Assembly (NCBI GenBank): GCA_033064195.1
Contig: JARBJD010000114.1
Span: forward strand, 144,962-208,961
Reading direction: 5' to 3'
Source of the DNA: Blattamonas nauphoetae
Taxonomy: Eukaryota > Preaxostyla > Oxymonadida
Length of the DNA: 64,000 nt
The position numbers and the translations under genes were made by a program. The notes beneath the pieces are model-generated. The model was not told the origin of the DNA, did no database searches, and saw only the letters and a program-made list of their open reading frames with translations. Of this stretch, positions 3,001-64,000 are shown piece after piece; the stretch's first letter is position 1, and each line of letters opens with the position of its first letter.

Positions 3001-5191
3001 AATTGTTCGGCGTGAGCAACCTCTTCCTCGAGAAAGTCGGTCTCTTCGATCTCTCTCTTCAGGACGCCTAAACAGGAAGCGAATAATGAGAAAGATGATC
3101 AAAAATGGAGAAAGGACTCAGAGCCCATACAGTTCGCGATGGTTCTCTGGAAGTTCTCATCCATGAGCTGATCGAGTGTGTGCTGGAAGTTCTTCAACAC
3201 TGCTTTGCTGTTCGTCCACTGCCTGAGATTGTCAAAGATGGGTTCAACCATCCCGTCGATGTTGAATTGCGACGAGAGAGTCTTCTCCAGATCCGCTCGC
3301 ATCCTTTCGATGTACTTTTCAGTCTTCTGTCTTTCCGACTCTCTTTCTTCTTCTCGTCTTTGCCGTTCGGTGTCGCTTCTGTTGATGTAATCTGCCATCA
3401 TCTGTTTCCGAACGCTGTCTTCTTCGTGAATGAGGAGTTGAGTCAGTTGGTCCTGTCTAAACTGTTCCTCCTGCCTGTCAAGCTCTTCTTCTCTCCGTTG
3501 TTGGTCCTGTTTCTCTTTCTCTTCTGCTTCCTTTCTCTTTTTCTCTTCTAAACGTCTTTGTTGTTCGTCCAACCGCTTTTGTCTTTCGTCCAAGAGCTGC
3601 CGTTGTTGTTCAAGTTCAGCAGCACGTTCCAGTTCTTGCTGAATTCTTTCTTGTTGAAGTTTTTCCTGTTGAATCCTTTCCTGTTCTTCAATTTTCTTTT
3701 TTTCAGCCTCGCGCTTCCGTCTTTCCTCTTCAAGTCGCTCTTCCTGTTTGCGTAGCATTTCTTGTTCTCTGGCTTCTTGTTCCAATCTTTGCTTCTCTTG
3801 AAGGATTTTTTCTTTCTGAATGCGCTCCTGTTCAATTTTCTGTTGTTCTTCTTTGACTCTGTTAGCTTCAGCAAGTTGTTGTTCTTCCAGAATTTTCTTG
3901 GCTGCCTCCTCTTGAATCCGCTTTTCTTCTTCAAGTCGTTTCTTCTCTCGGAGCTGCCAAATTGTTAAACCTGTTGGCGTGGATGGTATAGGATTAATTG
4001 TATCTTCAGGCGCGTATGGATTGAGAGATGAATCATCTTCTGGAAGGATTGTTCCGCTTTTAGACCTTTGCAAGACACGAAGTCTCATCTGCCGCATTTT
4101 ATTATAGAGCATCTTGTAAGCACCTTTGATTTGGCTGAGCTGGAGAAGATCACGAGTTGTTGGTCTGTCGGCCGGTTCATCAGCGAGGAGTTGAAATAAC
4201 AGAAGTTTTACCGGCTGAGTCAGGTTTCTTCGACATGATGATTTCAAACTTTTGAGTGATTTATCTGCAGGAAGCTCCTGTCGAGTTGCAAGACGCCAGA
4301 AAATCAAGCCAAGCGAATATATATCTCCACTCTCAGTTACACTGGATAAGAATGAAGTATAATAAAAAATAGAGGAAAATAATAGTGCTGACAGTTTGTT
4401 TGATGTGACTTCCGGAGCAGCGTAGGGATTTTGACGCGATTTATCATCGTCTAAATATCGAATTATTCCGTAATCAGCTGAACAGAAATTGGAAAAAAGT
4501 TGAGGATGGCAATAAAACATCAGTATACTCAAGGCCAGATGGTTCGGAGTGAGACAGAAAATATTGCACGGTTTTAAATTTCCATGGACGACCCAATTTT
4601 TGTGAAGAGCATGTAAGGCCACAACCATCTGTGTCAAGAGGGTCAGTAGGGTCTAAATATCATAAACAAGTGGAATAATATGTTTTTAGTGATGGATATG
4701 TTGTATAAGGATAAAGTCGTTCAAACGTTCTCATCGACATCATGTCCCCGTTTGACATATGAATCAATTTTTGATTGCATTGATTCATATTTATCGCAAT
4801 GTTCAATGATCAGTTCACAATTCCCGCTGTCTTGAAAGAAATCGATGTATTTTAGAAGAGATGGCGATCGGAGGTGAACCAACGCCTCCATGTCCAGAAC
4901 GAAATTGTCGAGATCTGTAATCCATGACTTTGGAAACGACTTTTTGATTAAAGTCTCCTTCGGTGATGTTCGTGAAAGCTTTTTTGCCTGTGTAAGACTC
5001 CCTCGACTCAGGAGTACCTGAGTATATTTCTGGAGATCCACTTTGGGTCCAGGACGATGATAAAACAGGAAATGAAAGTAAGAAAAAAAGTACAATGATT
5101 CTGACGTTGCATTGGTATCCAGAACTCTCAGATGAATGAGGTCTGCCACTATTTCGATTGCGTGAAGAAGATCCTGCCCAGAAATGAACAC
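1..5191 (-). CDS. NEK-like pseudokinase with long coiled-coil tail (partial, 3' end outside window)
   Basis: Minus-strand gene running off the left edge. The exons I can place are 1-2870, 2913-3067, 3131-4341, 4393-4477, 4529-4652 and 4727 to about 5191, separated by GT-AG introns of 42-74 nt. The N-terminal part is a protein-kinase fold: a beta-3 lysine in LIKKSF, a C-helix glutamate in MEALVHL, a catalytic loop reading HGNLKPCN, a DYG metal-binding motif once the 4478-4528 intron is removed, and an APE motif (NPYAAPEV). The catalytic Asp of HxD is Asn and the glycine loop is eroded (LLSRGSLTQ), so phosphotransfer is doubtful. After the kinase come over 1,100 residues that are almost all E/R/Q/K heptad-like coiled coil, then an acidic, serine-rich disordered segment towards position 1. 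The start is unresolved: there is no ATG in the reading frame near 5191, so another exon may lie upstream. The fold assignment is firm; the role (scaffold or cytoskeletal) is inference. Confidence 0.75.
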
Positions 5192-5846: not shown

Positions 5847-6020
5847 ACGTTTTGTTTGTTTTCATTTCACAGAATATCTTTCTTCACCCAAAAACGAATG
5901 AAAAACGACAGTGCTGAAGAAAATGACTCAGGAAATCCGAGTAAAACAATAGCGACGAAAACAAAACGGATATAAAATAGAGAAATGGTCACCGACGAAC
6001 GGATCATCAGGACGTGATTG

Positions 6021-7406
6021 TCATTTCTCATCAATAGCGAAGAATTCCGGGATGGAAGCTGTAACAAGTCGAAATAGAAAGGGTATAAGTGATGGGAGGG
6101 AAATGAGATACATTTTAATTCTTCTTGTGATTCCATGAGCATCAGTTCCTGTTGTTGGAATTTGTCCGTTTTTTGGATGACTAAGTTCAGGGCAGTGATG
6201 GCATTCTCGCATGCCAACTTTAGGATATGGTAATTGAATTTTGCGCGTCCTTCAAGAGGAAACGATGGCATAGTGTGTGTCTGTGAATCGTTCTCGCATC
6301 GTAACTTGATGAGGTTTGATAGAAGAAGGGCTGCAAAGCAATCACCCGTCCCACCGTAATTGTAATGAACATACGGAAAGTTTATCGAAAAAATGGAGTT
6401 GGAGACATCCTGATGAGAGAATGATTGTGTCTGATCGAACGAAGCTGAAGTATTTGGTGATTGAGGTGGGGTTGGGAAGGAATGAATGGAATGCTGTGGG
6501 TCAGTACTTTGTGAAGGAGCATTTACAGGAGATGGAGAACAAAGTGGGCTGGAATGTGGTGTGGCATCCTCATTGTGATTGATTCCGACATCATCTCGCA
6601 TCGAATTAAGAATACTACAATAAAGAGTCATCATCGGAGATGGAGATGATGGCGTTTTTGAGTCAGGGACACCGGAGTAGTCAATCGATGAGAGGTCATC
6701 AATGTCAAAGATTGATTGATCGGTTCTGTTTCCATCCTCATCGAAACGAATGCTTTTCAAAATGATGACTGAGGTTCCATATTTCCCATGGAGACGTTGA
6801 AATCCTTTGAAAACATCGGCCTTATTTCTTATTGGAATTCTGGCTAGTGATCTGAACAGTTGAGTCGAGAATGGAACATACTCAAATTCGAAGAGATTTG
6901 GAAGAAGAATATCAGCCTGACCAATAACATCCTGTTGGTAAATTTCAGTAAGTTCTGAGCTGACGTAGTAATGTCCATTATCTCCCATGACAGGATCACA
7001 AACAAACAACGGTTTTCTTTCATTTGTTCTCAATTTTGCGATACATGAAGCAACTTCTTTGAGGAGAGATGGCTGACCAATATACCCCGTGATAACGTAT
7101 GCATAATTGAGGAGTTTGTTTGTCTGGAGGCCGTCCGCAAGTTCCTTGAACTCCGGACCTTGCATTCGTGTTCCTGGGTGTCCTGGATAATTGGAAGGAG
7201 CACTAACTACAGGAGAGAATTCAGAAAATGATCATGAATGCAGGAGTTTCTGAAAGATGCGTACGTTGGACAGTGTGTAAGAAATCAGCAGGAATTTGGT
7301 TCAGAAAGAAAATTGGCTGAGCACATTTATTACCGACATTGCCAAAGACAACGTGACTTTGAATTGATAAGACAGTACTATCATGAGGCACAGTTCTGAA
7401 GGCCAT
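6021..7406 (-). CDS. pdxK: Pyridoxal kinase (vitamin B6 salvage)
   Basis: ATP-dependent phosphorylation of pyridoxal to pyridoxal 5'-phosphate, a cytosolic ribokinase-like enzyme. Exons are 7265-7406, 6882-7206, 6112-6851 and 6021-6058; the sum is 1,245 nt, giving 414 residues and a TGA stop. Family hallmarks in order: SIQSHVVFGNVGN near the start, SNYPGHPGT restored by the first splice, GYIGQPSLL, CDPVMGDNG around residue 118, PNLFEFES restored by removing a 30-nt intron (6852-6881), and the GGTGD anion-hole and catalytic-Asp motif around 322. The usual enzyme is about 310 residues; the excess is a Ser/Pro-rich insert of about 100 residues just before GGTGD. The C-terminus after the last splice is SSIPEFFAIDEK. 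The start at ATG 7406 fits the family N-terminus. Confidence 0.93.
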
Positions 7407-9057: not shown

Positions 9058-10740
9058 ATTAACACAGCACCTCATCCACTTTCTTTTTTGGTATTTTTGT
9101 CTGAACGCCTGATAGCTTTCAATGGTCAACATCACCTCATCAACCACACGACTTGATTGGATTGTTCACATATTAATCGAAGAACAGAACAGGACAGACA
9201 ACGAATGAGAGAAGGGACATATACTGCCCGACATGACGACTTGATTCGGCTGTAAAACGGTTGTATTTTACTGAATAAAGAGACAATGTGTTTCACTTTT
9301 CTATCAAAGATAATTTAGAGAGGTAGAGACCTTGTGACAAAAAATTGGACACCAAAAAATTCTGAATGACGTGAAAACTGTAAAATTAAAAAAATGATGG
9401 ACATGTTCTTCACGACATGACACGTGATTCACTTCATCCTACTTGATCCCTCGAACTTTAAATTTTTTAACTCTACGAGAGTAACACTCGAGGAGGCTGT
9501 CACTGAATGAGAGAACGCTGATTCTAGTACTTTCTTGTGGGATCGAGTTCTCACCTCGCACGATTTTTGGACGAAGGAAGTCTATTGTAACGTAAATCGC
9601 ATAAATGTCAAAAATAATTGAAACGAGCGTTCACGAAATGTGTTTGATGAGGTTAAAGTCGGTACTGATTGTTTGAAAGTCTTTCTGACCGATATTGCCC
9701 TGTTTGATTCTGGGAAGTTTTATGTTTTTCTTGTTTCAACCAACACAATCACTGAGAAGGACCCGAGTGTGGTGGAGAGGGTCCATCTTGGCCTTAGTGA
9801 GAAGTTTGACGAAAGTGTCAGTGAATGTTTTCATTCCATGATATTTTCAGACACTCAAAGTTTGTCAGTTTCAACTCATCCCAGCACATCACCAAATCCC
9901 GAGTTTTCTTTGATGATCACACAACCTTGATTCTCAGCGTGGTGTGTCTTTTCTCTTTGTGACTTCTTCACTTTCTCTCGTCCTCTCTCGCACATTCTTC
10001 ACATCGCCAAACAGACAAAACTCTTAAGAGAAACATTTCGAAAGAGTGACATTTCCGATGGTGCAGCGATTTTGAAAACGATGGGGCTGAAAGAGAGGAA
10101 CTCTGTGACATTTCCTGAAACTGATTCGACTCACTTAGAGGAAGCGTTGGAAAGAACGGTGTGATTTTTGATTTCGAAATCTGTCTTTCGATGAACGGCT
10201 GACCTTTATGACACGTTTTTGAATCTGAAATGAACAGAATTCAATGTCTTGACGGTTGCGAGCTGTGGCTGGTTTTTCTTTCGCAACTCACTGTCCATCA
10301 TCGGTATTCAGCGTATCGGTGTCCTTGGATACTGCATTGACAGAGACATGGAGCGAGCGAGTTGACTTATTTCTTCCTTTTCATTTTCTTCATTCAATCT
10401 GCTTCTATCTATCACTTGACATTCACAATCCTGGATACATTCAAGAGTGATATCGGTTGTGAATCACGTGTCATGTCGTTCGAAGTATGTCCCCCTACAG
10501 TAGCATTTCATGTCATACTCTCTTATTTTTCACTGTTGTTCTTTCAAAAAAATCGCAGAGATGTATAACTCAAGGTAGTTGAAGTGTGTGTAAAATGAAT
10601 TCTCAACTCTCTCTTGTTCTGTCAAAAAACAAAAATTGTAGCTGGATCAAGTCGCCGTGACGGGCAGTATAAAGGAAGAATAAAGATGAAGAAAATGGAG
10701 AAACAGATACATGAAAAAGTGTTATGATATGCGAACTTGA
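9058..10740. other. 1.7-kb interval with coding-like fragments, no intact gene recognised
   Basis: The plus strand carries an open frame at 9640-9930 (96 codons, includes DPSVVERVHLGLSEKF), another at about 10017-10162 ending in a TGA (includes LKTMGLKERNSVTF), and a further stretch near 10250-10345 (SCGWFFFRNSLSIIG). The frames differ and stops separate them, and no splice model that I tried joins them. They may be remnants of one decayed gene or exons of an unrecognised gene. The remainder is AT-rich spacer. Confidence 0.3.
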
Positions 10741-48915: not shown

Positions 48916-48988
48916 CTCGATGTAGTCTAGTCGGCTAGGATAGGGGATTTTCACTCCTCAGACCCGGGTTCGATTCCCGGCATCGAGG
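48916..48988 (+). tRNA. tRNA-Glu(TTC), retrotransposon target
   Basis: 73-nt cloverleaf. Acceptor CTCGATG/CATCGAG pairs perfectly; anticodon stem GGGGA/TCCTC with anticodon TTC at 48950-48952; T-arm CCGGG-TTCGATT-CCCGG; discriminator G at 48988. The retrotransposon array starts at the very next base, so the tRNA gene itself is intact. The element's first bases (TTCGTTTTT) supply a T-run that can act as the Pol III terminator. The last 16 bases (48973-48988) recur after each retrotransposon copy. Confidence 0.95.
48973..48988 (+). repeat. 16-bp target sequence, copy 1 (inside tRNA-Glu)
   Basis: ATTCCCGGCATCGAGG: the 3' strand of the T-arm, the acceptor strand and the discriminator base. Repeated at 56164-56179 and 63345-63360. 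Confidence 0.92.
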
Positions 48989-49066
48989 TTCGTTTTTCGC
49001 GTTTTACACCCTTTTGCACTCTCCGTGCTCTAACTAACGTTTTCCGAGAAAATGGAGTCTCCACAT

Positions 49067-49096
49067 CATGATCCGACCGAAAAAGTGTCGATCATG
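49067..49096 (+). promoter_or_regulatory. Conserved hairpin in the retrotransposon 5' leader
   Basis: CATGAT pairs with ATCATG (6 bp), a bulged C, then CGAC pairs with GTCG (4 bp) around an A-rich loop. The same stems are present in copies 2 and 3; only the A-run in the loop varies. Function unknown: it could be an RNA-binding, translation or processing element. Confidence 0.55.
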
Positions 49097-49720
49097 TTGA
49101 TCGCACCAAAGCCGGTCAATATGGCACTCTCCCTCCTCATGACCACGATCAACCGTGCAAAATGCCTCGCCTGAGAACTGCACCTCTTCTTTTCTCATAC
49201 ACTGCCTTCGACACCCCCAACCAACCCCTCCCAACACGATGCTCCAAACTCCTCACACCACCCACCCCTCACCTCACCCTCCCGCATTTCTTCAGTTATA
49301 TTTTCGCAAGAAGCAGACACCTCCTTCTCTGCACCTATTCCGTCGATACGAACACAGTCCAGACAACTTTCATCTTGTCAATCCAACCATCGTTCATTTA
49401 CCCCCGCATCGGCCAAACAAGCCGTATCACTCGATTCCTATCCATATTCTCCATCCCACCAACAGCGTCACTATCTTCCCAGATCCCCCTATCCTCGAAA
49501 CGTCCATTCGAATCGGATCGTTCTCTCCTCCCCAACCCGCCAACAAAACTCGTCTACCCTCCCCTCTGACGATGCGAAACAAGATCCTTGGTGGGGATCG
49601 GGACTGGCTCCTTCCAGTTTCCACCCATCCACCACCCCTCAACTGCCCTCACCCGACCGTCCCCCACGACCACCTAAATACCCCCAACCGCCCCGACAAC
49701 TCACTCTCCGACGCTCCAGC

Positions 49721-52700
49721 ATGGAGAGAGAGGAGGAGGCCTTCGACGAAAGTCACAACGAACCAACCATCAGCGAAGCAACAAAAGAAAGAAAAACGAA
49801 CAAAAATTCCGAGCGATTCGGACTACAAAAGATGATTGGTTCGATTGGAAACTTCTTCTCGTCCAGAGCAAAGAAAAAAGAAAAATCACAACAGCAACTG
49901 GACAACCCCATCGCTCAGCCCAGAGCCGAAACCTCAAAGAAGGACGAAGAGGCCACTTCAATTCAGGTGGGAAGGGAAGATGATCAGGAGGAAGGAGAAA
50001 CAGTAGAGGAGGAAGGAGAGACAGGAAACTTTCAAAGCAGAACAGAGGAAGAGGAGAACACCAACCAATCTTCTATCCAACCAAACTCTTCAGTCGAATC
50101 CACGCATTCGCCCCCATCCTCCCCAATTCAGCTGAAAAGAACGCTTCGTCAACGGGACCCGGTGACAAAGCAAGCAATCACCGGGAACCGCCTCAAATCG
50201 AACTTTTCACACCCACTCAACTCAACATCCTCCCAAACTCCCAAAGAAAGACAGAAACAATCCCCAAAACTCCCAAACCGTCGCCGTCCCCCAAAACGAG
50301 TCGGAAAATCACCAATTCCGATCCATCAACCTCCTCTCACTCCAATCAGTCCATTACCTCTCGTATACGACTCAGACATCGCAAACCAATTCCAAATGAG
50401 ATTAAAGAGTGAGACAGGGAGGGAGAGACAGAAACAGAAAAGAAAGAAGGGCAGAAAGAAACCTCAACTCGACAGCGAATCAAACGATACCTCCGACTCA
50501 GAAAATCAGTCCCTTGGGTCCATTAGGAGTAGAAAGAGAGATTGTCCCACGCCGGCCTCTTCCTCTTCACAGGAAGAATCCACAACCTCGGCATCCAACC
50601 AAACACTCTCTCAACAGCCAAACAGCACCAATTACCAATCAAATGACAATACATCTGCAAAAACTGGAACAGCAGTCATTTCAACTCAAAAAGTGACCGA
50701 AGGAGGAACGGAAACGGAGGAACAGAAGAAAATCGAGAAGAGACAAAGACAAGTCGAACAACTCAAGAATCATATCCTCAGAAGAGTCAAAGCAACACCA
50801 ATAGCTGAAAGCTCAACGCAAACCGAAGCAACGAACCCACAACAACTCAAAAAGACAGGAAACGTCCAGATGACAATGGACAGCTTCTTTGAGGTCCAAA
50901 AGCGAACAAGCCCTCCTCTAGAGCAAACCGAACCACCCCTTCCACCACACATCGTCAACCAACTCTATCAACCAACGTTCATCACAAACAACATCGACTT
51001 CACCAACTCCTTCAACTCCACCACCAACATATTCACAGTGTCGCAACCGACGATGAACATGTTCTTCGAAACGGAAGAGGAGGGAATGGCGAAAGATGAA
51101 TGGGAAATAGAATGGCTCGGAGGGGACATCGACTCAAACGGAATCCAAGAAGATGAACAAGCCAAACAATACCAATACGAGAACGACTTCATCAGAAAGA
51201 GGGACATCGCACTCAATTGGGAATGGCAACATGGGAATTCGCCTGAGATGGGATTTACAACAGAACACTTTGGGAAAACGGAGAATGAAACTGAAATGAG
51301 CGGGAAAAGGGAATGTGGGACAGATACGATGGTGAAAGTGGAGAGCGGGCTGGATATGATTGGGAAAGTGGAGAGCGAGTCAGTTGCGATTAGGAAAGTA
51401 GAGAGCAGGACAGATTCGATTGGGACAGTGGAGAGCGGGTCAGAAATGATGAAGAAAGTGGAGAGCGAGTCAGATACAACGGGGAAAGTGGAGAGCGGGT
51501 CGGAGACATTGCGGAAAGTGGAGAGCGGGTCAGATACAACGGGGAAAGTGGAGAGCGGGCCAGATACAACGGGGAAAGTGGAGAGCAGGTCAGTGACAAG
51601 GGGGAAAGTAGAAAACGGAACCAGATCGATTGAACGAATGGAAGGTGAACGGGACAAGCTCACGAGTGTGAAGATGAATTTGAACGAACCAATCAAAAGG
51701 AAAGAAAACAGAACTACACCTCTGACATTCCAGGGGCAATCCGAAACAAAGATACAAGCCGACACGGACGACTGGCTTTCAAAACTCGAAAGGGCCGCAG
51801 CGGAGGACACACTCCCCATCACCCAAGCCCGGAAAGACAAACACCCCCAACAAGAAGGAGTTGAAAAGAATCTGGACAGTTCTTTCCAGGAACAGCTGGA
51901 GGAGTTGGTGAACCGAAGGAAGGAGGTGGAGAACATGTGGATGAGTCGGAAACTCAGTGTGAAGCAGGTAGAAGATAGAAAGGGTCTGATGACAGTCAAT
52001 CGAACAGAGATTGCAGGGAATGTGAAGAGCGGTGAGGAAGCGAATCAAAGAGAGGATGAGAAGCTTCTGAGCTGGGTGAAGATGCTCATAGAGACAATGA
52101 AGATCTGGAACAGCATCAACTTCAAGAAGCTGATGGGAAACCTTGAGTTGAAGGAGGGCCAAACTTTTTGGAGGACAAAGAGATGGGGAGAAGACAAAGT
52201 GATGAAAGTTGAATCGCTTGCAACCGCGACGATCCGAAAGCTCCTGCCAATCCTTGGCATCGCTCCAAACACATCCCTCCCTAATTACATCCTCCATCTC
52301 CCATTGAACGAACTCTCTCGCGAACACATTGAACTCATCAACACCCACACAACGACTAGCACAGAATACACATTCGTGATTGCGAAAGCATGGAACCGAA
52401 TCAAAGCGCCAGAAAAGAAGATTGGACAGCCTGTCACGCTGAGAGAGAAAGAGTTCGCTCACTCCAAGGCACTTCAGTCACTCGATCCGTCCGAAGGACA
52501 CAGCCTCCCCAACACAGTCCAAATCCCAATCCCGACATTCAAGCAACCACAAGAAGCCTCACATCTCCGCCCAGCAGACCTCCCACCATTCAACCCAACG
52601 AATGGCTACACAAGTTGGAGTGAAGACCTAACGACACAGCATCTTCACGGAGGTAGGACACTCCTTGCCCACCTCCTCTCCAAAGCAAACGATCGCCTCG

Positions 52701-55700
52701 CAGACACAAACTGGTCGCGAGAGGAGATAGATGAGCTGATGTGGAAGCTGTCGTCGATCCCGTCAGAGCTGAAAGCCAGAACGCACAAACCAAAGAGGAA
52801 GACCGAAGAGAGGACAGTGAGGCTGAGCCAAGAAGAGACATTGAACCGAGCAGTGAAGAAGTGGGAGAACTTGGTGGCAAGAGGGAAGACGAGCTCCATC
52901 ACGAAAGAGATCGAGGACATGAATGCCGGTCGCACACAGTCACTCTCCTTCGACGAAGTGAAGCAAAGAATCACAGCCCTCCACAACGATGAGGACAGGA
53001 AGGCCCTCTATCTCAGTGTCAACAGGAGGACAAGGGAACAAGTGCGCAGTGGAGAGAAACTGGAGATCAGGAACGCGACCAATGGTCTCAACTCGAACTC
53101 CACACCCTCGCTCGACGGCCTCACAGCTGAGTTCGTCAAGAGATGCTGCCGAAACGACAAGATCGTGGAGGACCAATTGGGCAATCTCATCTCTCTCTGC
53201 CTCGAAAGGAACTATCTCCCTCAAGCGTGGTGCGTGTGCAGGATGGTCGGGATCCCGAAAACAGATGGGAAGATCAGACCGATCGCTGTCCAACACACCT
53301 TGCGGAAACTTATGGCTCGCCTACTCCTCGAACGGAACAAGGGTTGGTTGCAGAGGCACACCTCCCCAAGACAAGTCGGGGTGGGTGTGAGGAACGGCAG
53401 GAGCGTGGTTGTTGATGCGGTGGAGCATGCCATCGACGAGGCAATCCAACAGAGAACCACACAGTTCATCGTCATGCTTGACATGTCCAATGCCTTTCAG
53501 AATGTCCGAAGACAACAACTCCTCAACAAGCTGGCAGACATCGAGGACTACGACGCTGAACTCTTGCACTTCATCAGAAATTCCTTCGAGCAAGAGACCC
53601 TCATCCTCAGTCGAGGCGAGGAGACAGCAGCGATCCCAAACAGCCGCGGTGTCCAGCAGGGATGTCCACTATCTCCATCCCTCTTTGCCTTCTACATCAC
53701 TGAACCAATGAGGCAAGCTGAAGCTGGCGGAGCAACGGCATGGGGTTACCTCGACGACCTTGTCCTCATGGCGAACTCGGAAGCCCAACTCAACCGCAGC
53801 CTGACCAAGCTCTCAACATCCCTCACTGCACACGGCCTCACCCTCAATCCAACGAAGACGGTCATCATGTCAGTCGTCGATGGCGTCCCCTCAACCAAAC
53901 CGATCAACGTGCTCGGTCACTCGGTCACTCCTCGAACATCGGCCAAGCTTCTTGGTACGATCGTGACCAACGACCAGCAAACCAGAGACAACTTCTTCAT
54001 GGAGCGAGTGGAGAGAATCAAGTCGACGCTTCCCAAGGTCTCCCTCCTCAGTCACCAAGCACACTTGCATCTCCTCCGTCAATCCATCTCCTCCAAACCC
54101 CTTCACATCCTCGCCACCACCTTCATCTCAGAGGAAGCCCTCATCTCCGCAGACACCACCATCACCTCCCACCTCTCAAATCTCTTCAACATCCCTGATT
54201 CCCAACAGTTCCTCATCCACCTCCCAATCAAAGAAGGAGGACTCGGCATCCCCTCATTCGTTCAGACAGCCCTTCCATCACTCATCTGTTCACACGCATC
54301 GCTCCACCCAGAGATGTGGGAAGCCGATCACATCCAGAGAGCGAAGGTCGACCTCGAGTCAAGGGACACACAGCCATCCTTCTCGACTTCGAAACCAGTA
54401 ATGAGGATGATCACACACTTGACGAAGGAAGAGTACGATGCAGCGAGACAGGGTCAGAAGCAGTTGAGAGAGCTCATGACGAAGGAGGAAACAGCAGCGA
54501 AGCTGTCATTGCTGTCCGTCCACCAACAGAACAAGCACAATGTGATCAAGTCAGCTGAGAATCAGAAGTGGCGGTCCACACTTCCAGCAGACAGGTACCA
54601 CAAGATAAACAACAACGTCTTCAGGTGCGCGCTGGACAATCTCTTTCTGAAACCTCCCCTCTCCTTCTCGGAGGCCACCCGTTTCAACATGGACTCCAAC
54701 CCACACACACACGCACCCACCCAACTCCGTTGTCCTGCATGCCAGTGTGAAATGCTGGAAGACCACGCCGGCTGCTGCAAGCGAACCAGCAGTGAGAGAC
54801 TCGCAAGGCATCACGCCATCAAGTTCCTGCTTGCGCAGACACTCAAGGAGATCCCGTCAATCACTGTGAGAACCGAGACCAAGATGGGAAGAGACGATGA
54901 AGATGCAAATGAAGAAGCAAACACAATAGCCGATCTTCAACTCAGAGTCACCACTGGCTACACCAAACACCGCTTCGTCCGAGACATCCTCGGAATCAAA
55001 GACGATGGCCAAAGGATCCTTGAGTTCGGACTTGATCTCGTGATACCACAAGACTTCACAAGCAGATCACACACGCAGAGAGGGATGATGGACCCGAAAG
55101 GCAGAGTCAAGGAAGCAGAGAGGAAGAAGGAAAGGAAGTACAGCAGAGCGGGCCAAAGCCACACAGTCATCGGCATTGGCTTGAGCGACCACGGCCACTC
55201 AGGCCCCAACGCCTCACTCTTCTTCGACTTCATCAAACAGCTTGCTATCGAAAGGAAGATACCCAACCCACTCCCCATCTTCTTCACCCAAGTATCAGTC
55301 ATCATGGAACTCGTTCGCTCCCACATGGAACAGACATACATCAAGACGCTCAGCCATCTTGCTAGGAGGAAGGAAGAAGAAAGAAAGCGCACTGTTGGGA
55401 TCGAAATGGACATGGAATCATTCAACCTCATCACTTCAGTCACCGGAGACTCACTCCACAACACTTCAATCACACTCATCAACAACACTACACACAACAA
55501 CCCCACACTTCACAAGGCAAACACCACACATCACCTTCAAATCACACCACCTCAACCCATCACCTCACCATCCCCCACTTCACCTCACACACCGGAGCAC
55601 CAAACACCCCACTCTCCCCTCCCCACCACTCCACTCCCCTCACCCATCACAGCAACGCCCAACCCAAGACTAACACAAACCAAACTTCGTCTAGGAAAGG

Positions 55701-55747
55701 GTATGTTGCTGCAGATGGACGGCGGAGATTCGAAACGCAGAATATAG
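49721..55747 (+). CDS. Retrotransposon polyprotein: reverse transcriptase, CCHC, restriction-like endonuclease (2,008 aa)
   Basis: Uninterrupted 2,008-codon frame. Residues 1-900 are charged and disordered, with a 10-residue repeat tract. The reverse transcriptase spans about 1118-1450: PSLDGLTAEF (motif 1), GIPKTDGKIRPIAV, catalytic MLDMSNAF (motif A, about 1251), GCPLSPSLFAF (motif B, about 1312) and YLDD at 1343-1346 (motif C). A zinc knuckle C-x2-C-x7-H-x3-C sits at 1671-1686. A restriction-like endonuclease follows: ADLQ (Asp 1738), FGLDLVI (Asp 1772) and a KERKY lysine near 1805. No AP endonuclease, RNase H or N-terminal zinc finger is seen. In copy 2 the frame begins 186 codons earlier at a MPRLRT start (56356). 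Here the matching ATG is at 49162, but single-base differences in C-runs put it out of frame, so the true protein is probably about 2,190 residues. Confidence 0.9.
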   Translation: MEREEEAFDESHNEPTISEATKERKTNKNSERFGLQKMIGSIGNFFSSRAKKKEKSQQQLDNPIAQPRAETSKKDEEATSIQVGREDDQEEGETVEEEGETGNFQSRTEEEENTNQSSIQPNSSVESTHSPPSSPIQLKRTLRQRDPVTKQAITGNRLKSNFSHPLNSTSSQTPKERQKQSPKLPNRRRPPKRVGKSPIPIHQPPLTPISPLPLVYDSDIANQFQMRLKSETGRERQKQKRKKGRKKPQLDSESNDTSDSENQSLGSIRSRKRDCPTPASSSSQEESTTSASNQTLSQQPNSTNYQSNDNTSAKTGTAVISTQKVTEGGTETEEQKKIEKRQRQVEQLKNHILRRVKATPIAESSTQTEATNPQQLKKTGNVQMTMDSFFEVQKRTSPPLEQTEPPLPPHIVNQLYQPTFITNNIDFTNSFNSTTNIFTVSQPTMNMFFETEEEGMAKDEWEIEWLGGDIDSNGIQEDEQAKQYQYENDFIRKRDIALNWEWQHGNSPEMGFTTEHFGKTENETEMSGKRECGTDTMVKVESGLDMIGKVESESVAIRKVESRTDSIGTVESGSEMMKKVESESDTTGKVESGSETLRKVESGSDTTGKVESGPDTTGKVESRSVTRGKVENGTRSIERMEGERDKLTSVKMNLNEPIKRKENRTTPLTFQGQSETKIQADTDDWLSKLERAAAEDTLPITQARKDKHPQQEGVEKNLDSSFQEQLEELVNRRKEVENMWMSRKLSVKQVEDRKGLMTVNRTEIAGNVKSGEEANQREDEKLLSWVKMLIETMKIWNSINFKKLMGNLELKEGQTFWRTKRWGEDKVMKVESLATATIRKLLPILGIAPNTSLPNYILHLPLNELSREHIELINTHTTTSTEYTFVIAKAWNRIKAPEKKIGQPVTLREKEFAHSKALQSLDPSEGHSLPNTVQIPIPTFKQPQEASHLRPADLPPFNPTNGYTSWSEDLTTQHLHGGRTLLAHLLSKANDRLADTNWSREEIDELMWKLSSIPSELKARTHKPKRKTEERTVRLSQEETLNRAVKKWENLVARGKTSSITKEIEDMNAGRTQSLSFDEVKQRITALHNDEDRKALYLSVNRRTREQVRSGEKLEIRNATNGLNSNSTPSLDGLTAEFVKRCCRNDKIVEDQLGNLISLCLERNYLPQAWCVCRMVGIPKTDGKIRPIAVQHTLRKLMARLLLERNKGWLQRHTSPRQVGVGVRNGRSVVVDAVEHAIDEAIQQRTTQFIVMLDMSNAFQNVRRQQLLNKLADIEDYDAELLHFIRNSFEQETLILSRGEETAAIPNSRGVQQGCPLSPSLFAFYITEPMRQAEAGGATAWGYLDDLVLMANSEAQLNRSLTKLSTSLTAHGLTLNPTKTVIMSVVDGVPSTKPINVLGHSVTPRTSAKLLGTIVTNDQQTRDNFFMERVERIKSTLPKVSLLSHQAHLHLLRQSISSKPLHILATTFISEEALISADTTITSHLSNLFNIPDSQQFLIHLPIKEGGLGIPSFVQTALPSLICSHASLHPEMWEADHIQRAKVDLESRDTQPSFSTSKPVMRMITHLTKEEYDAARQGQKQLRELMTKEETAAKLSLLSVHQQNKHNVIKSAENQKWRSTLPADRYHKINNNVFRCALDNLFLKPPLSFSEATRFNMDSNPHTHAPTQLRCPACQCEMLEDHAGCCKRTSSERLARHHAIKFLLAQTLKEIPSITVRTETKMGRDDEDANEEANTIADLQLRVTTGYTKHRFVRDILGIKDDGQRILEFGLDLVIPQDFTSRSHTQRGMMDPKGRVKEAERKKERKYSRAGQSHTVIGIGLSDHGHSGPNASLFFDFIKQLAIERKIPNPLPIFFTQVSVIMELVRSHMEQTYIKTLSHLARRKEEERKRTVGIEMDMESFNLITSVTGDSLHNTSITLINNTTHNNPTLHKANTTHHLQITPPQPITSPSPTSPHTPEHQTPHSPLPTTPLPSPITATPNPRLTQTKLRLGKGMLLQMDGGDSKRRI
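51333..51632 (+). repeat. 30-bp tandem repeat encoding KVESGSDTTG-like units
   Basis: About ten head-to-tail 10-codon units (KVESGLDMIG, KVESGSETLR, KVESGPDTTG and others) in the N-terminal region of the retrotransposon ORF. In copy 2 (about 58515-58850) the tract differs in unit order and has indels that break the frame. Confidence 0.85.
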
Positions 55748-56163
55748 AAGAAGACGAAGGCAAACAGGACGAAGACGATGCCTATTGCAAGGAAGAGAAG
55801 GGCCAGAAGGAAGGAAAGAAGGAAGGACATGATCAAGAGAAGCCCAAAGAAGGAACAACGGAAGACAGAGACAAGGAGGAAGCAGAAGAAGTGGCACAGC
55901 GCGAGAGAAACAACCGAGTGCTGCCTGGCCTCGGACCGCCAGCAGGAGTCCCTCCTCCCCCAAACTCATTCTTTCCTTCTCCCATCTCCCCCCAGGCTTT
56001 GCGAGCAGAGCGGATCGAGCGAGAAGCACAAAAGCACAATCATCAAGCGCCCACCAGACAATAGAAAGCATAAGTCAGAATAAAACCAATTTCACACTCT
56101 TTATTGTTCATCTTTGTTTCCATTCTCATCTCATTTGATCCAGCCCACTTCGAAATGTACCCC
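55748..56163 (+). other. Retrotransposon 3' region
   Basis: Purine-rich sequence after the stop of copy 1, containing AATAAA at 56079-56084 and the conserved end that abuts the 16-bp target repeat. In copy 2 the homologous stretch is an open, K/E-rich extension of the ORF to a TAG at 63243-63245, so the ancestral coding end is uncertain. Confidence 0.55.
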
Positions 56164-56179
56164 ATTCCCGGCATCGAGG
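56164..56179 (+). repeat. 16-bp target sequence, copy 2 (between elements)
   Basis: Identical to the 3' 16 bases of tRNA-Glu (48973-48988). Preceded by element sequence (TGTACCCC) instead of the rest of the tRNA, so no complete tRNA is present here. Confidence 0.92.
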
Positions 56180-59100
56180 TTCGTTTTTTCGCGTTTTTGC
56201 ACCCCTTTTGCACTCTCCGTGCTCTAACTAACGTTTTCCGAGAAAATGGAGTCTCCACATCATGATCCGACCGAAAAAGTGTCGATCATGTTGATCGCAC
56301 CAAAGCCGGTCAATATGGCACTCTCCCTCCTCATGACCACGATCAACCGCGCAAAATGCCTCGCCTGAGAACTGCACCTCTTCTTTTCTCATACACTGCC
56401 TTCGACACCCCCAACCAACCCCTCCCAACACGATGCTCCAAACTCCACACACCACCCACCCCTCACCTCACCAACCCCGCATTTCTTCAGTTATCTTTTC
56501 GCAGGAAGCAGACACCTCCTTCTCTGCAGCTATTCCGTCGATACGAACACAGTCCAGACAACTTTCATCTTGTCAATCCAACTATCGTTCATTTACCCCG
56601 CATCGGCCAAACAAGCCGTATCACTCGATTCCTATCCATATTCTTCATCCCATCAACAGCGTCACTATCTTCCCAGATCCCCTATCCTCGGAATGTCCAT
56701 TCGAATCGGATCGTTCTCTCTTCCCCAACCCGTCAACAAAACTCGTCTACCCTCCCCTCTGACGATGCGAAACAAGATCCTTGGTGGGGGTCGGGACTGG
56801 CTCCTTCCAGTTTCCACCCATCCACCACCCCTCAACTGCCCTCATCCGACCGCCCCCCACGACCACCTAAATACCCCCAACCGCCCCGACAACTCACTCT
56901 CCGACAATCCAGCATGGAGAGAGAGGAAGAGGCCTTCGACGAAAGTCACAATGAACCAACCATCAGCGAAGCAACAAAAGAAAGAAAAACGAACAAAAAT
57001 TCCGAGCGATTCGGACTACAAAAGATGATCGGTTCGATTGGAAACTTCTTCTCGTCCAGAGCAAAGAAAAAAGAAAAATCACAACAGCAACTGGACAATC
57101 CTATCGCTCAGCCCAGAGCCGAAAGTGGAAAGAAGGACAAAGAGGCCACTTCAATTCAGGTGGGAAAGGAAGACGGTCTGGAGGAAGGAGAAACAGTAGA
57201 GGAGGAAGGAGAGACAGGAAACTTTCAAAATAGAACAGAGGAAGAGGAGAACACCAACCAATCTTCTATCCAACCAAACTCTTCAGTCGAATCCACGCAT
57301 TCGCCCCCATCCTCCCCAATTCAGCTGAAAAGAACGCTTCGTCAACGGGACCCGGTGACAAAGCAAGCAATCACCGGGAACCGCCTCAAATCGAACTTTT
57401 CACACCCACTCAACTCAACATCTTCCCAAACTCCCAAAGAAAGACAGAAACAATCCCCAAAACTCCCAAACCGTCGCCGTCCCCCAAAACGAGTCGGAAA
57501 ATCACCAGTTCCGATCCATCAACCTCCTCTCACTCCAATCAGTCCATTACCTCTCGTATACGACTCAGACATCGCAAACCAATTCCAAATGAGATTAAAG
57601 AGTGAGACAGGGAGGGAGAGACAGAAACAGAAAAGAAGGAAGGGCAGAAAGAAACCTCAACTCGACAGCGAATCAAACGATACCTCCGACTCAGAAAATC
57701 AGTCCCTTGGGTCCATTAGGAGTAGAAAGAGAGATTGTCCCACGCCGGCCTCTTCCTCTTCACAGGAAGAATCCACAACCTCGGCATCCAACCAAACACT
57801 CTCTCAACAGCCAAACAGCACCAATTACCAATCAAATGACAATACATCTGCAAAACTGGAACAGTAGTCATTACAACTCAAAAGTGACCGAAGGAGGAAC
57901 GGAAACGGAGGAACAGAAGAAAATCGAGAAGAGACAAAGACAAGTCGAACAACTCAAGAATCATATCCTCAGAAGAGTCAAAGCAACACCAATAGCTGAA
58001 AGCTCAACGCAAACCGAAGCAACGAACCCACAACAACTCAAAAGACAGGAAACGTCCAGATGACAATGGACAGCTTCTTTGAGGTCCAAAGCGAACAAGC
58101 CCTCCTCTAGAGCAAACCGAACCACCCCTTCCACCACACATCGTCAACCAACTCTATCAACCAACGTTCATCACAAACAACATCGACTTCACCAACTCCT
58201 TCAACTCCACCACCAACATATTCACAGTGTCGCAACCGACGATGAACATGTTCTTCGAAACGGAAGAGGAGGGAATGGCGAAAGATGAATGGGAAATAGA
58301 ATGGCTCGGAGGGGACATCGACTCAAACGGAATCCAAGAAGATGAACAAGCCAAACAATACCAATACGAGAACGACTTCATCAGAAAGAGGGACATCGCA
58401 CTCAATTGGGAATGGCAACATGGGAATTCGCCTGAGATGGGATTTACAACAGAACACTTTGGGAAAACGGAGAATGAAACTGAAATGAGCGGAAAAGGGA
58501 ATGGGACAGATACGATGGTGAAAGTGGAGAGCGGGCTGGATATGATTGGGAAAGTGGAGAGCGAGTCAGTTGCGATTAGGGAGTGAGCAGGACAGATTCG
58601 ATTGGGACAGTGGAGAGCGGGTCAGAAATGATGAAGAAAGTGGAGAGCGGGTCAGATACAACGGGAAAGTGGAGAGCGGGTCAGATACAACGGGAAAGTG
58701 GAGAGCGGATCAGCTGCGATTGGGAAAACTGAGAACGGGTCAGTTGCGATTGGGAAAGTGGAGAGCGGGTCAGAGTATTATTGCGGAAAGTAGAGAGCGG
58801 GTCAGATACAACGGGGAAAGTGGAGAGCAGGTCAGTGACAAGGAAACGGAACCAGATCGATTGAACGAATGGAAGGTGAACGGGACAAGCTCACGAGTGT
58901 GAAGATGAATTTGAACGAACCAAAAGGAAAGAAAACAGAACTACACCTCTGACATTCCAGGGGCAATCCGAAACAAAGATACAAGCCGACACGGATGACT
59001 GGCTTTCAAAACTCGAAAGGGCCGCAGCGGAGGACACACCCCATCACCCAAGCCCGGAAAGACAAACACCCCCAACAAAAAGGGAGTTGAAAGAATCTGG

Positions 59101-62100
59101 ACAGTTCTTTCCAGGAACAGCTGGAGGAGTTGGTGAACCGAAGGAAGGAGGTGGAGAACATGTGGATGAGTCGGAAACTCAGTGTGAAGCAGGTAGAAGA
59201 TAGAAAGGGTCTGATGACAGTCAATCGAACAGAGATTGCAGGGAATGTGAAGAGCGGTGAGGAAGCGAATCAAAGAGAGGATGAGAAGCTTCTAAGCTGG
59301 GTGAAGATGCTCATAGAGACAATGAAGATCTGGAACAGCATCAACTTCAAGAAGCTGATGGGAAACCTTGAGTTGAAGGAGGGCCAAACTTTTGGAGGAC
59401 AAAGAGATGGGGAGAAGACAAAGTGATGAAAGTTGAATCGCTTGCAACCGCGACGATCCGAAAGCTCCTGCCAATCCTTGGCATCGCTCCAAACATCCCT
59501 CCCTAATTACATCCTCCATCTCCCATTGAACGAACTCTCTCGCGAACACATTGAACTCATCAACACCCACACAACGACTAGCACAGAATACACATTCGTG
59601 ATTGCGAAAGCATGGAACCGAATCAAAGCGCCAGAAAGAAGATTGGACAGCCTGTCACGCTGAGAGAGAAAGAGTTCGCTCACTCCAAGGCACTTCAGTC
59701 ACTCGATCCGTCCGAAGGACACAGCCTCCCAACACAGTCCAAATCCCAATCCCGACATTCAAGCAACCACAAGAAGCCTCACATCTCCGCCCAGCAGACC
59801 TCCCACCATTCAACCCAACGAATGGCTACACAAGTTGAGTGAAGACCTAACGACACAGCATCTTCACGGAGGTAGGACACTCTTGCCTACCCTCTCCAAA
59901 GCAACGATCGCCTCGCAGACACAAACTGGTCGCGAGAGGAGATAGATGAGCTGATGTGGAAGCTGTCGTCGATCCCGTCAGAGCTGAAAGCCAGAACGCA
60001 CAAACCAAAGAGGAAGACCGTAGAGGACAGTGAGGCTGAGCCAAGAAGAGACATTGAACCGAGCAGTGAAGAAGTGGGAGAACTTGGTGGCAAGAGGAAG
60101 ACGAGCTCCATCACGAAAGAGATCGAGGACATGAATGCCGGTCGCACACAGTCACTCTCCTTCGACGAAGTGAAGCAAAGAATCACAGCCCTCCACAACG
60201 ATGAGGACAGGAAGGCCCTCTATCTCAGTGTCAACAGGAGGACAAGGGAACAAGTGCGCAGTGGAGAAACTGGAGATCAGGAACGCGACCAATGGTCTCA
60301 ACTCGAACTCCACACCCTCGCTCGACGGCCTCACAGCTGAGTTCGTCAAGAGATGCTGCCGAAACGACAAGATCGTGGAGGACCAATTGGGCAATCTCAT
60401 CTCTCTGCCTCGAAAGGAACTATCTCCCTCAAGCGTGGTGTGATGGTCGGGATCCCGAAAACAGATGGGAAGATCAGACCGATCGCTGTCCAACACACCT
60501 TGCGGAAACTTATGGCTCGCCTACTCCTCGAACGGAACAAGGGTTGGTTGCAGAGGCACACCTCCCCAAGACAAGTCGGGGTGGGTGTGAGGAACGGCAG
60601 GAGCGTGGTTGTTGATGCGGTGGAGCATGCCATCGACGAGGCAATCCAACAGAGAACCACACAGTTCATCGTCATGCTTGACATGTCCAATGCCTTTCAG
60701 AATGTCCGAAGACAACAACTCCTCAACAAGCTGGCAGACATCGAGGACTACGACGCTGAACTCTTGCACTTCATCAGAAATTCCTTCGAGCAAGAGACCC
60801 TCATCCTCAGTCGAGGCGAGGAGACAGCAGCGATCCCAAACAGCCGCGGTGTCCAGCAGGGATGTCCACTATCTCCATCCCTCTTTGCCTTCTACATCAC
60901 TGAACCAATGAGGCAAGCTGAAGCTGGCGGAGCAACGGCATGGGGTTACCTCGACGACCTTGTCCTCATGGCGAACTCGGAAGCCCAACTCAACCGCAGC
61001 CTGACCAAGCTCTCAACATCCCTCACTGCACACGGCCTCACCCTCAATCCAACGAAGACGGTCATCATGTCAGTCGTCGATGGCGTCCCCTCAACCAAAC
61101 CGATCAACGTGCTCGGTCACTGCCTCCTCGAACATCGGCCAAGCTTCTTGGTACGATCGTGACCAACGACCAGCAAACCAGAGACAACTTCTTCATGGAG
61201 CGAGTGGAGAGAATCAAGTCGACGCTTCCCAAGGTCTCCCTCCTCAGTCACCAAGCACACTTGCATCTCCTCCGTCAATCCATCTCCTCCAAACCCCTTC
61301 ACATCCTCGCCACCACCTTCATCTCAGAGGAAGCCCTCATCTCCGCAGACACCACCATCACCTCCCACCTCTCAAATCTCTTCAACATCCCTGATTCCCA
61401 ACAGTTCCTCATCCACCTCCCAATCAAAGAAGGAGGACTCGGCATCCCTCATTCGTTCAGACAGCCCTTCCATCACTCATCTGTTCACACGCATCGCTCC
61501 ACCCAGAGATGTAGGCCGATCACATCCAGAGCGAAGGTCGACCTCGAGTCAAGGGACACACAGCCATCCTTCTCGACTTCGAAACCAGTAATGAGGATGA
61601 TCACACACTTGACGAAGGAAGAGTACGATGCAGCGAGACAGGGTCAGAAGCAGTTGAGAGCTCATGACGAAGGAGGAAACAGCAGCGAAGCTGTCATTGC
61701 TGTCCGTCCACCAACAGAACAAGCACAATGTGATCAAGTCAGCTGAGAATCAGAAGTGGCGGTCCACACTTCCAGTAGACAGGTACCACAAGATAAACAA
61801 CAACGTCTTCAGGTGCGCGCTGGACAATCTCTTTCTGAAACCTCCCTCTCCTTCTCGGAGGCCACCCGTTTCAACATGGACTCCAACCCACACACACACG
61901 CACCCACCCAACCCGTTGTCCTGCATGCCAGTGTGAAATGCTGGAAGACCACGCCGGCTGCAAGCGAACCAGCAGTGAGAGACTCGCAAGGCATCACGCC
62001 ATCAAGTTCCTGCTTGCGCAGACACTCAAGGAGATCCCGTCAATCACTGTGAGAACCGAGACCAAGATGGGAAGAGACGATGAAGATGCAAATGAAGAAG

Positions 62101-63344
62101 CAAACACAATAGCCGATCTTCAACTCAGAGTCACCACTGGCTACACCAAACACCGCTTCGTCCGAGACATCCTCGGAATCAAAGACGATGGCCAAAGGAT
62201 CCTTGAGTTCGGACTTGATCTCGTGATACCACAAGACTTCACAAGCAGATCACACACGCAGAGAGGGATGATGGACCCGAAAGGCAGAGTCAAGGAAGCA
62301 GAGAGGAAGAAGGAAAGGAAGTACAGCAGAGCGGGCCAAAGCCACACAGTCATCGGCATTGGCTTGAGCGACCACGGCCACTCAGGCCCCAACGCCTCAC
62401 TCTTCTTCGACTTCATCAAACAGCTTGCTATCGAAAGGAAGATACCCAACCCACTCCCCATCTTCTTCACCCAAGTATCAGTCATCATGGAACTCGTTCG
62501 CTCCCACATGGAACAGACATACATCAAGACGCTCAGCCATCTTGCTAGGAGGAAGGAAGAAGAAAGAAAGCGCACTGTTGGGATCGAAATGGACATGGAA
62601 TCATTCAACCTCATCACTTCAGTCACCGGAGACTCACTCCACAACACTTCAATCACACTCATCAACAACACTACACACAACAACCCCACACTTCACAAGG
62701 CAAACACCACACATCACCTTCAAATCACACCACCTCAACCCATCACCTCACCATCCCCACTTCACCTCACACACCGGAGCACCAAACACCCCCACCTCCC
62801 TCCGCCGCTCCACTCCCTCACCCATCACAGCAACGCCCAACCCAAGACTAACACAAACCAAACTTCGTCTAGGAAAGGGTATGTTGCTGCAGATGGACGG
62901 CGGAGATTCGAAACGCAGAATATAGAAGAAGACGAAGGCAAACAGGACGAAGACGATGCCTATTGCAAGGAAGAGAAGGGCCAGAAGGAAGGAAAGAAGG
63001 AAGGACATGATCAAGAGAAGCCCAAAGAAGGAACAACGGAAGACAGAGACAAGGAGGAAGCAGAAGAAGTGGCACAGCGAGAGAAACAACCGAGTGCCTG
63101 GCCTCGGCACCGGACCGCCAGCAGGAGTCCCTCTCTACCCCCAAACTCATTCTTTTCCCTTCTCCCATCTCCCCAGGCTTTGCGAGCAGAGCGGATCGAG
63201 CGAGAAGCACAAAAGCACAATCATCAAGCGCCCACCAGACAATAGAAAGCATAAGTCAGAATAAAACCAATTTCACACTCTTTATTGTTCATCTTAGTTT
63301 CCATTCTCATCTCATTTGATCCAGCCCACTTCGAAATGTACCCC
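56180..63344 (+). mobile_element. tRNA-Glu-targeted retrotransposon, copy 2 (full length, frameshifted)
   Basis: Head-to-tail copy with the same 5' and 3' ends as copy 1; the period including the target repeat is 7,181 bp. Nucleotide identity to copy 1 is very high over its length. Many differences are 1-3-nt losses, often in homopolymers or short repeats. AATAAA at 63260-63265. Confidence 0.9.
56356..63245 (+). pseudogene. Frameshifted retrotransposon ORF of copy 2
   Basis: Begins MPRLRTAPLLF at 56356 and stays open for 503 codons to 57867, joining in frame to the region where copy 1's ORF starts. It is then broken repeatedly (near 57855, 58045, 58090, 58580 and onward). The reverse transcriptase core is open at 60353-61162 (motifs A, B and YLDD intact), the thumb region continues in another frame, and the endonuclease segment is open at 61938-63245. 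One Cys of the CCHC knuckle is lost in a 3-nt deletion. As assembled it cannot encode a single protein. Whether the breaks are real or sequencing errors is open. Confidence 0.8.
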
Positions 63345-63360
63345 ATTCCCGGCATCGAGG
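63345..63360 (+). repeat. 16-bp target sequence, copy 3 (between elements)
   Basis: Third identical copy of the tRNA-Glu 3' end, at the junction of copies 2 and 3. Confidence 0.92.
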
Positions 63361-64000
63361 TTCGTTTTTCGCGTTTTTGCACCCCTTTTGCACTCTCGCA
63401 CTCTAACTAACGTTTTCCGAGAAAATGGAGTCTCCACATCATGATCCGACCGAAAAAAAAGTGTCGATCATGTTGATCGCACCAAAGCCGGTCAATATGG
63501 CACTCTCCTCCTCATGACCACGATCAACCGTGCAAAAAATGCCCTCGCCTGAGAACTGCACCTCTTCTTTTCTCATACACTGCCTTCGACACCCCCAACC
63601 AACCCTCCCAACACGATGCTCCAAACTCCTCACACCACCCACCCTCACTACCCTCCCGCATTTCTTCAGTTATATTTTCGCAAGAAGCAGACACCTCCTC
63701 TCTGCACCTATTCCGTCGATACGAACACAGTCCAGACAACTTTCATCTTGTCAATCCAACCATCGTTCATTTACCCCGCATCGGCCAAACAAGCCGTATC
63801 ACTCGATTCCTATCCATATTCTCCATCCCACCAACAGCGTCACTATCTTCCCAGATCCCCTATCCTCGAAACGTCCATTCAGAATCGGATCGTTCTCTCC
63901 TCCCAACCCGTCAACAAAACTCGTCCATCCTCCTCTGACGATGCGAAACAAGATCCTTGGTGGGGGTCGGGACTGGCTCCTTCCAGTTTCCACCCATCCA
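63361..64000 (+). mobile_element. tRNA-Glu-targeted retrotransposon, copy 3 (5' part only, cut by window end)
   Basis: Starts with the same TTCGTTTTT leader and hairpin (A-run in the loop three bases longer). The MPRLRT start (ATG at 63539) is followed by an extra C, so the upstream frame is shifted. Several other 1-2-nt differences from copies 1 and 2 lie in C and A runs. The copy runs beyond the window. Confidence 0.88.
63539..64000 (+). pseudogene. 5' part of the ORF of retrotransposon copy 3
   Basis: Homologous to the N-terminal 150 codons of the copy 2 ORF but with an insertion directly after the start codon and further single-base indels, so no continuous frame is present within the window. 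Confidence 0.55.

Follow-up and report, generated by a model that had tools for sequence, protein, structure and literature searches.

A head-to-tail retrotransposon array at the 3' end of a tRNA-Glu gene in Blattamonas nauphoetae

How copies of one retrotransposon came to follow one another directly behind an intact tRNA gene, with the tail of that gene repeated at every junction, is the question raised by the final 64 kb of contig C18 of Blattamonas nauphoetae, a gut protist of the oxymonads. This 64-kb stretch, referred to here as the window, closes a contig of 208,961 bp in a genome of 88,311,006 bp and 837 contigs. The locus is very probably an array of site-specific non-long-terminal-repeat (non-LTR) retrotransposons with a restriction-like endonuclease (RLE), in which the 3' tail of tRNA-Glu is duplicated at each insertion and the copies are stacked head to tail.

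The array and the protein it encodes

The features of the array are as follows.

48916..48988, + strand: intact tRNA-Glu(TTC) gene, anchor of the array (ARAGORN)
48973..48988, + strand: 16-mer ATTCCCGGCATCGAGG, 3' end of the tRNA gene including the discriminator, first target copy (exact match)
48989..56163, + strand: element copy 1, 7175 bp, with leader TTCGTTTTTCGCG... and 3' end ...CACTTCGAAATGTACCCC
49721..55747, + strand: open reading frame (ORF) of 2008 amino acids in copy 1
51280..51636, + strand: 30-bp tandem repeat in the N-terminal half of the ORF, variable in length among units
53252..53923, + strand: reverse transcriptase (RT) domain RVT_1 with YLDD (Pfam)
54731..54778, + strand: CCHC knuckle, C-X2-C-X7-H-X3-C (motif)
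54806..55141, + strand: RLE core with RH..IK, IAD, FGLDLVIPQD and KX2KY (motifs, after the description in the available part of PMC5678591)
56164..56179, + strand: 16-mer between copies 1 and 2 (exact match)
56180..63344, + strand: element copy 2, 7165 bp, with interrupted frames and many homopolymer indels
63345..63360, + strand: 16-mer between copies 2 and 3 (exact match)
63361..64000, + strand: element copy 3, initial 640 bp, ending with the window and with C18

A preliminary description of this DNA had reported three head-to-tail copies; the array in the window consists of two complete copies and the beginning of a third, which is cut after 640 bp by the contig end. The same 16 bp were found at each junction, as described. 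ATTCCCGGCATCGAGG has three exact matches in the window, all on the + strand and all at the tRNA end or at the junctions. Copy 1 begins just past the discriminator, its 5' boundary being fixed to within about 10 nt.

On sequence grounds the elements are classified as RLE-type non-LTR retrotransposons, in agreement with the RT, CCHC and endonuclease motifs noted previously. RVT_1 was recovered with an E-value of 2.9e-30, and the best sequence match of the protein in the PDB was R2Bm. A longer frame of 2327 amino acids, starting with ATG at nt 69 of the unit, was found in unit C303_d. The CCHC knuckle lies upstream of the endonuclease, with X3 in place of X4 ahead of the final C when compared with the consensus CX2-3CX7-8HX4C for RLE elements (PMC5678591, available part). 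Its four residues were invariant in one 24-row alignment, and in a second alignment the second C was not listed as invariant. The C-terminal RLE residues, identified at motif level, are the D of IAD, a D in FGLDLVIPQD (two alignments pick different Ds as the catalytic one) and the K of KERKY. No Pfam match to an apurinic/apyrimidinic endonuclease (APE) was obtained, RVT_1 being the sole domain both in the 2008-residue ORF and in an 862-residue part.

Eight Blattamonas rows formed one clade (support 99) in an RT phylogeny and three R2 rows fell in a separate supported set (97). This was a quick, midpoint-rooted tree of 81 of 116 rows, using 70 of the 102 other database rows, with R2 as the sole named reference; Bn_P0012, P0096 and P0105 were left out as too gappy. 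Both this placement and the targets (tRNA and 5S genes, versus 28S rDNA) set the elements outside the R2 clade. The lack of an APE match and the insertion exactly at the tRNA 3' end likewise set them apart from TRE elements, which carry an APE endonuclease. Two NCBI records with RT copies, P0002 and P0021 (on contigs of 25,628 and 618,662 bp), are labelled 'putative Tyrosine-protein kinase', an apparent misannotation.

Target genes across the genome

Exact matches to the 14-mer core TTCCCGGCATCGAG number 25 in 88.3 Mb. Eight lie within tRNA-Glu genes (with TTC as anticodon on C18, C315, C14 and C534, and CTC on C405, C24, C7 and C1), and the remaining 17, spread over eight contigs, at internal junctions between elements. 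Seven additional matches with one mismatch lie outside this classification, and the reversed 14-mer gave four matches with up to one mismatch allowed. Since every exact match is a tRNA-Glu gene or an element junction, a chance origin of the pattern is excluded. A 141-bp tRNA-Glu probe recovered the same eight genes and no others, and the element 5' end follows the motif in all eight. When copies at unrelated sites were searched for with a 286-bp probe of the 3' end, which contains the 16-mer, 20 element ends were obtained; a tRNA-Glu tail followed in 17, a tRNA-Asp tail in two and a decayed tail in one. The specificity for a tRNA 3' end proposed earlier was thus upheld, and within the same family it extends to tRNA-Asp.

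The motif common to the Glu and Asp tails, GGTTCGATTCCCGGC, occurs exactly 14 times in the genome, in eight tRNA-Glu and six tRNA-Asp(GTC) genes, and its reversed form does not occur. All 14 genes are directly followed by an element 5' end. This count covers genes with the exact motif, and the Rfam list of tRNAs is incomplete (63 of 4071 candidates scored). The gene copies are not all independent loci: in the 5' flanks, C18 and C315 agree at 99.5% and C405 and C7 at 99.2%, while the C24 flank has about 540 bp in common with the latter two at 97-98%. At C1, C14, C534, C379, C712 (two genes) and C22:23441 the 0.6-1.4 kb examined held a diverged or partial element only. In the distal copy on C405, at 9811-9826 of the stretch read and some 140 nt inside the copy, 16 nt match tRNA-Glu in antisense orientation (TCGAACCCGGGTCTGA).

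Could guidance by RNA polymerase III (Pol III) factors (TFIIIC/TFIIIB), without direct recognition of the DNA, account for this distribution, as in TRE5-A of Dictyostelium? All identified targets are indeed Pol III genes (tRNA and 5S), and the duplication starts in the B box. Nevertheless, the insertions occupy one exact position in tRNA types that share the motif (14 of 14), and leader similarity was absent from the approximately 80 nt downstream of all 20 control tRNA genes (Lys, Cys, Thr, Arg, Met, Ile and Ser, chosen from at least 46 listed by Rfam). Factor-guided elements of the TRE5-A type, moreover, insert near their target without an exact internal site (PMC3706591, available part), and this explanation is considered quite unlikely.

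The 16-mer might instead be encoded by the element, as a tRNA-derived 3' end that pairs with the target, with no target duplication at all. The presence of ATTCCCGGC in both Glu and Asp junctions would fit. The sequence after ATTCCCGGC, however, changes with the target (ATCGAGG or TTGGACG) behind an identical Glu-type 3' end, and at 5S genes the repeat is 37 bp of 5S, which makes an element-encoded 16-mer highly improbable. Glu-type elements were found at a tRNA-Asp gene on C22 and ahead of Asp tails on C570 and C787. The element at C22:8201-9800 is of Glu type (97%) with an Asp-type sequence in its first ~55 nt, that is, a mosaic 5' end.

Related elements were detected at further Pol III genes. 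A related leader follows all four copies found of tRNA-Val(AAC) and is absent after two tRNA-Val(CAC) genes and one tRNA-Val(TAC) gene. Among six matched copies of tRNA-Phe(GAA), one continues into a leader akin to the Val-family one, with no RT seen at this occupied copy; four of the five others, known by their match extents only, continue 8 to 12 nt beyond the tRNA along the occupied copy. For 5S rRNA, at least seven matches continue across one common junction that follows probe position 68 (C474, three on C356, C682, C130 and C449; 40 of 158 candidates scored), and a 29-nt 5S stretch has 142 genome matches with up to one mismatch. A partial 5S gene adjoining one of these insertions was confirmed by Rfam. 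In the two 5S insertions read across the 3' junction this junction is identical, and in it the element end ...CATTTCAGGTGTATCCCTC is followed by 37 bp of repeated 5S and then by the remaining 5S, so that this sister family also carries a target-derived duplication. At the element 3' end the Glu, Val and 5S families resemble one another (CAGCCCACTTCGAAATGTACCCC, CAGACCACTTCAGATGTACCCC and CAGCCCATTTCAGGTGTATCCC). The duplication starts with ATTCCC in Glu and Asp and with GATCCC in 5S; the equivalent tRNA position in Val reads ATCCC, the sole Val tandem junction being decayed. The 5S family on C474 and C356 also has a tandem repeat of about 158 bp downstream of the RT.

Two groups were not counted as tRNA-targeted. 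Twenty-six matches with a leader 74-80% similar behind an Asp tail (among them C707, C2, C36:174184, C171, C801, C204, C512, C786 and C42) were read as a dispersed derivative repeat; the eight copies read are nearly identical in both flanks, several of them are close to a contig end, and the C707 copy had no RT ORF in 9.2 kb. The family on C138, C523 and C478, with an RT about 40% identical and a repeat-rich upstream region, was set aside as dispersed relatives, with no tRNA found by ARAGORN and no Rfam match in the stretches examined; the C138 copy begins at an internal point of the family, next to an unrelated flank. No target was found behind the elements on C13, C61, C430 and C627 in the stretches examined.

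Insertion and growth of the arrays

The protein would recognise the tail of tRNA-Glu and tRNA-Asp genes through the shared GGTTCGATTCCCGGC. The lower strand would be nicked at TTCG|ATTCCC, in that half of the T arm which belongs to the B box, with reverse transcription primed at this nick (target-primed reverse transcription, as in R2). The upper strand would then be cut downstream, at the discriminator or a few bases beyond, and the tRNA 3' end would become duplicated on both sides. The tRNA gene beside the insertions stays whole and has its T-run terminator at the usual distance, a run of at least four T beginning 1-7 nt past the tRNA in 20 of 20 controls and in all 19 occupied tRNA genes read. 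Each insertion would rebuild the target, allowing further copies to insert, either at the tRNA or at inner junctions, and to stack head to tail.

A nick in the T-arm/acceptor region with a 16-bp stagger had been proposed. The repetition of the target at the junctions agrees with this, but the length is less firm: 16 bp is the simplest reading at the tRNA and it could reach about 26 bp, because the downstream end is hidden in arrays and the tRNA-Phe matches mentioned above extend 8-12 nt. It is also possible that the element supplies the Pol III terminator: leaders of the 5S family open with T-runs and native 5S lacks one there. On the other hand, those same tRNA-Phe matches continue past the tRNA, and the element-free tRNA-Val(CAC) also carries ACTTTTT.

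The copies are recent, substitutions between full units ranging from 0.16 to 1.7%, with the older C303_e as an exception at about 5%. Some are very close (C303_f and C621_b, 0.16%; the neighbours C621_a and C621_b, 0.13% over 3.9 kb; the neighbours C24_1 and C24_2, 0.47%), as would be expected if one founder had been multiplied into arrays chiefly through unequal crossing-over or tandem duplication of DNA, the 16-mer being carried along. The mosaic 5' end at C22:8862 also suggests gene conversion or template switching. Yet the neighbours C18_1 and C18_2 (1.26%) and C315_1 and C315_2 (0.87%) are further apart than some units on different contigs, and neighbours are often not nearest relatives. 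In the unit tree (13 of 16 units, with C18_2 trimmed by fixed lengths as a marker was missing), C18_1 grouped with C315_1 (99) and C18_2 with the C303 units (95-100). The subgroup order on C18 is II-I-II, judged on the first 640 bp. These data, together with the Glu-type elements at Asp targets on C22, C570 and C787, make duplication of a single founder unlikely as the main source. This alternative and the others considered here are not all incompatible with the main reading. From the distances between neighbours and the alternation on C18 we infer that most units entered separately and that duplication or gene conversion also played some part, in line with the previously proposed rebuilding of the target.

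The arrays terminate at contig ends, where gap events are frequent, and the tandem junctions might be assembly artefacts. However, 17 internal junctions occur on eight contigs, and units of different subgroups are found joined, on which grounds this explanation was set aside as the only cause, and it is considered exceedingly improbable. The published assembly, a slightly different release of 879 contigs and 88,537,989 bp, was obtained from Nanopore R9.4 reads of DNA sheared at about 20 kb, enough to span the 7.2-kb unit, with Canu, Nanopolish and Pilon (PMC10703272, available part). The use of decay as a clock, with distal copies taken as older on account of the broken frames of copy 2 on C18 and C315, was dropped: substitutions amount to about 1% while gap events reach about 50 per unit. 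About half of these events are homopolymer indels, and the broken distal frames, including those of C18 copy 2, fit poor polishing near contig ends.

Elsewhere in the window, host ORFs at 5867-7165 (- strand) and 3099-4637 (- strand) matched Phos_pyr_kin and Pkinase, respectively; Pfam gave no match for 10 of the 12 host ORFs scanned.

Known elements and significance

RLE elements specific for tRNA genes are already known, so the suggestion that such an element may be undescribed was not supported: NeSL-1_TV (tRNA-Pro), LIN15_SM (tRNA-Arg) and LIN25_SM (tRNA-Glu) were reported in 2015 (PMC4640811, section 10). Compared by description only, NeSL-1_TV differs from the Blattamonas elements in its tRNA-Pro target, whereas LIN25_SM and LIN15_SM are planarian and belong to the animal R5/LIN lineage (PMC4640811). 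NeSLTv comes from Trichomonas vaginalis (PMC5678591, available part). No Trichomonas name appeared among the database rows listed for the element protein, most of which were without a name. Trichomonas vaginalis is a metamonad, like Blattamonas.

R2 (R2Bm, 8gh6; R2Tg, 9dou) resembles the elements in how RT, knuckle and C-terminal domain are ordered and folded and in its exact site in a multicopy RNA gene, but targets 28S rDNA, shows 17-18% identity in structural alignment and stands apart in the RT tree. GilM copies of Giardia are arranged head to tail. GilM is likewise a non-LTR element with several copies together, located however at a chromosome end rather than at tRNA genes (PMC7000408, available part). 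Utopia is an RLE element in a small RNA gene, and Utopia-1_NVit is occasionally tandem, but its target is U2 snRNA and it belongs to the NeSL clade (PMC4640811, available part). TRE5-A also lies beside tRNA genes, but its integration is upstream, is directed by Pol III factors and depends on a B box; in one example the insertion precedes an A/B-box locus on rDNA by 47 bp (PMC5391098, available part). Mutsu (5S rRNA) and Dewa (tRNA-Leu spacer) are non-LTR elements with comparable targets, but from zebrafish (PMC3706591, available part).

No literature on retrotransposons of Blattamonas nauphoetae was found in a search that excluded subscription papers and preprints, nor any word beginning with 'transpos' in the available part of the genome paper (PMC10703272). 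As far as the literature found shows, this lineage, the five target types in one genome and the presence of an element behind each of the 14 Glu/Asp motif copies are new.

The chances are about even that one RLE lineage radiated within this single protist genome into specialists for Pol III genes (Glu, Asp, Val(AAC), Phe and 5S), occupying the 3' side of all motif-bearing Glu and Asp genes. The B-box-like nick site AT(T)CCC, common to tRNA and 5S, would explain its switching between targets. If so, Glu and Asp tRNAs would be transcribed from genes with a retroelement as downstream flank, each insertion regenerating both tRNA and target.

The elements are a source of contig breaks and misnamed genes in the Blattamonas nauphoetae genome. 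As related R2-like enzymes whose tRNA and 5S targets are different and closely defined, they could also serve as a natural set for mapping target choice onto protein sequence. An insertion that spares an essential gene bears on safe-harbour gene insertion. R2 has hundreds of rDNA units as targets; the persistence of selfish DNA with few targets may be studied here on eight tRNA-Glu and six tRNA-Asp gene copies.
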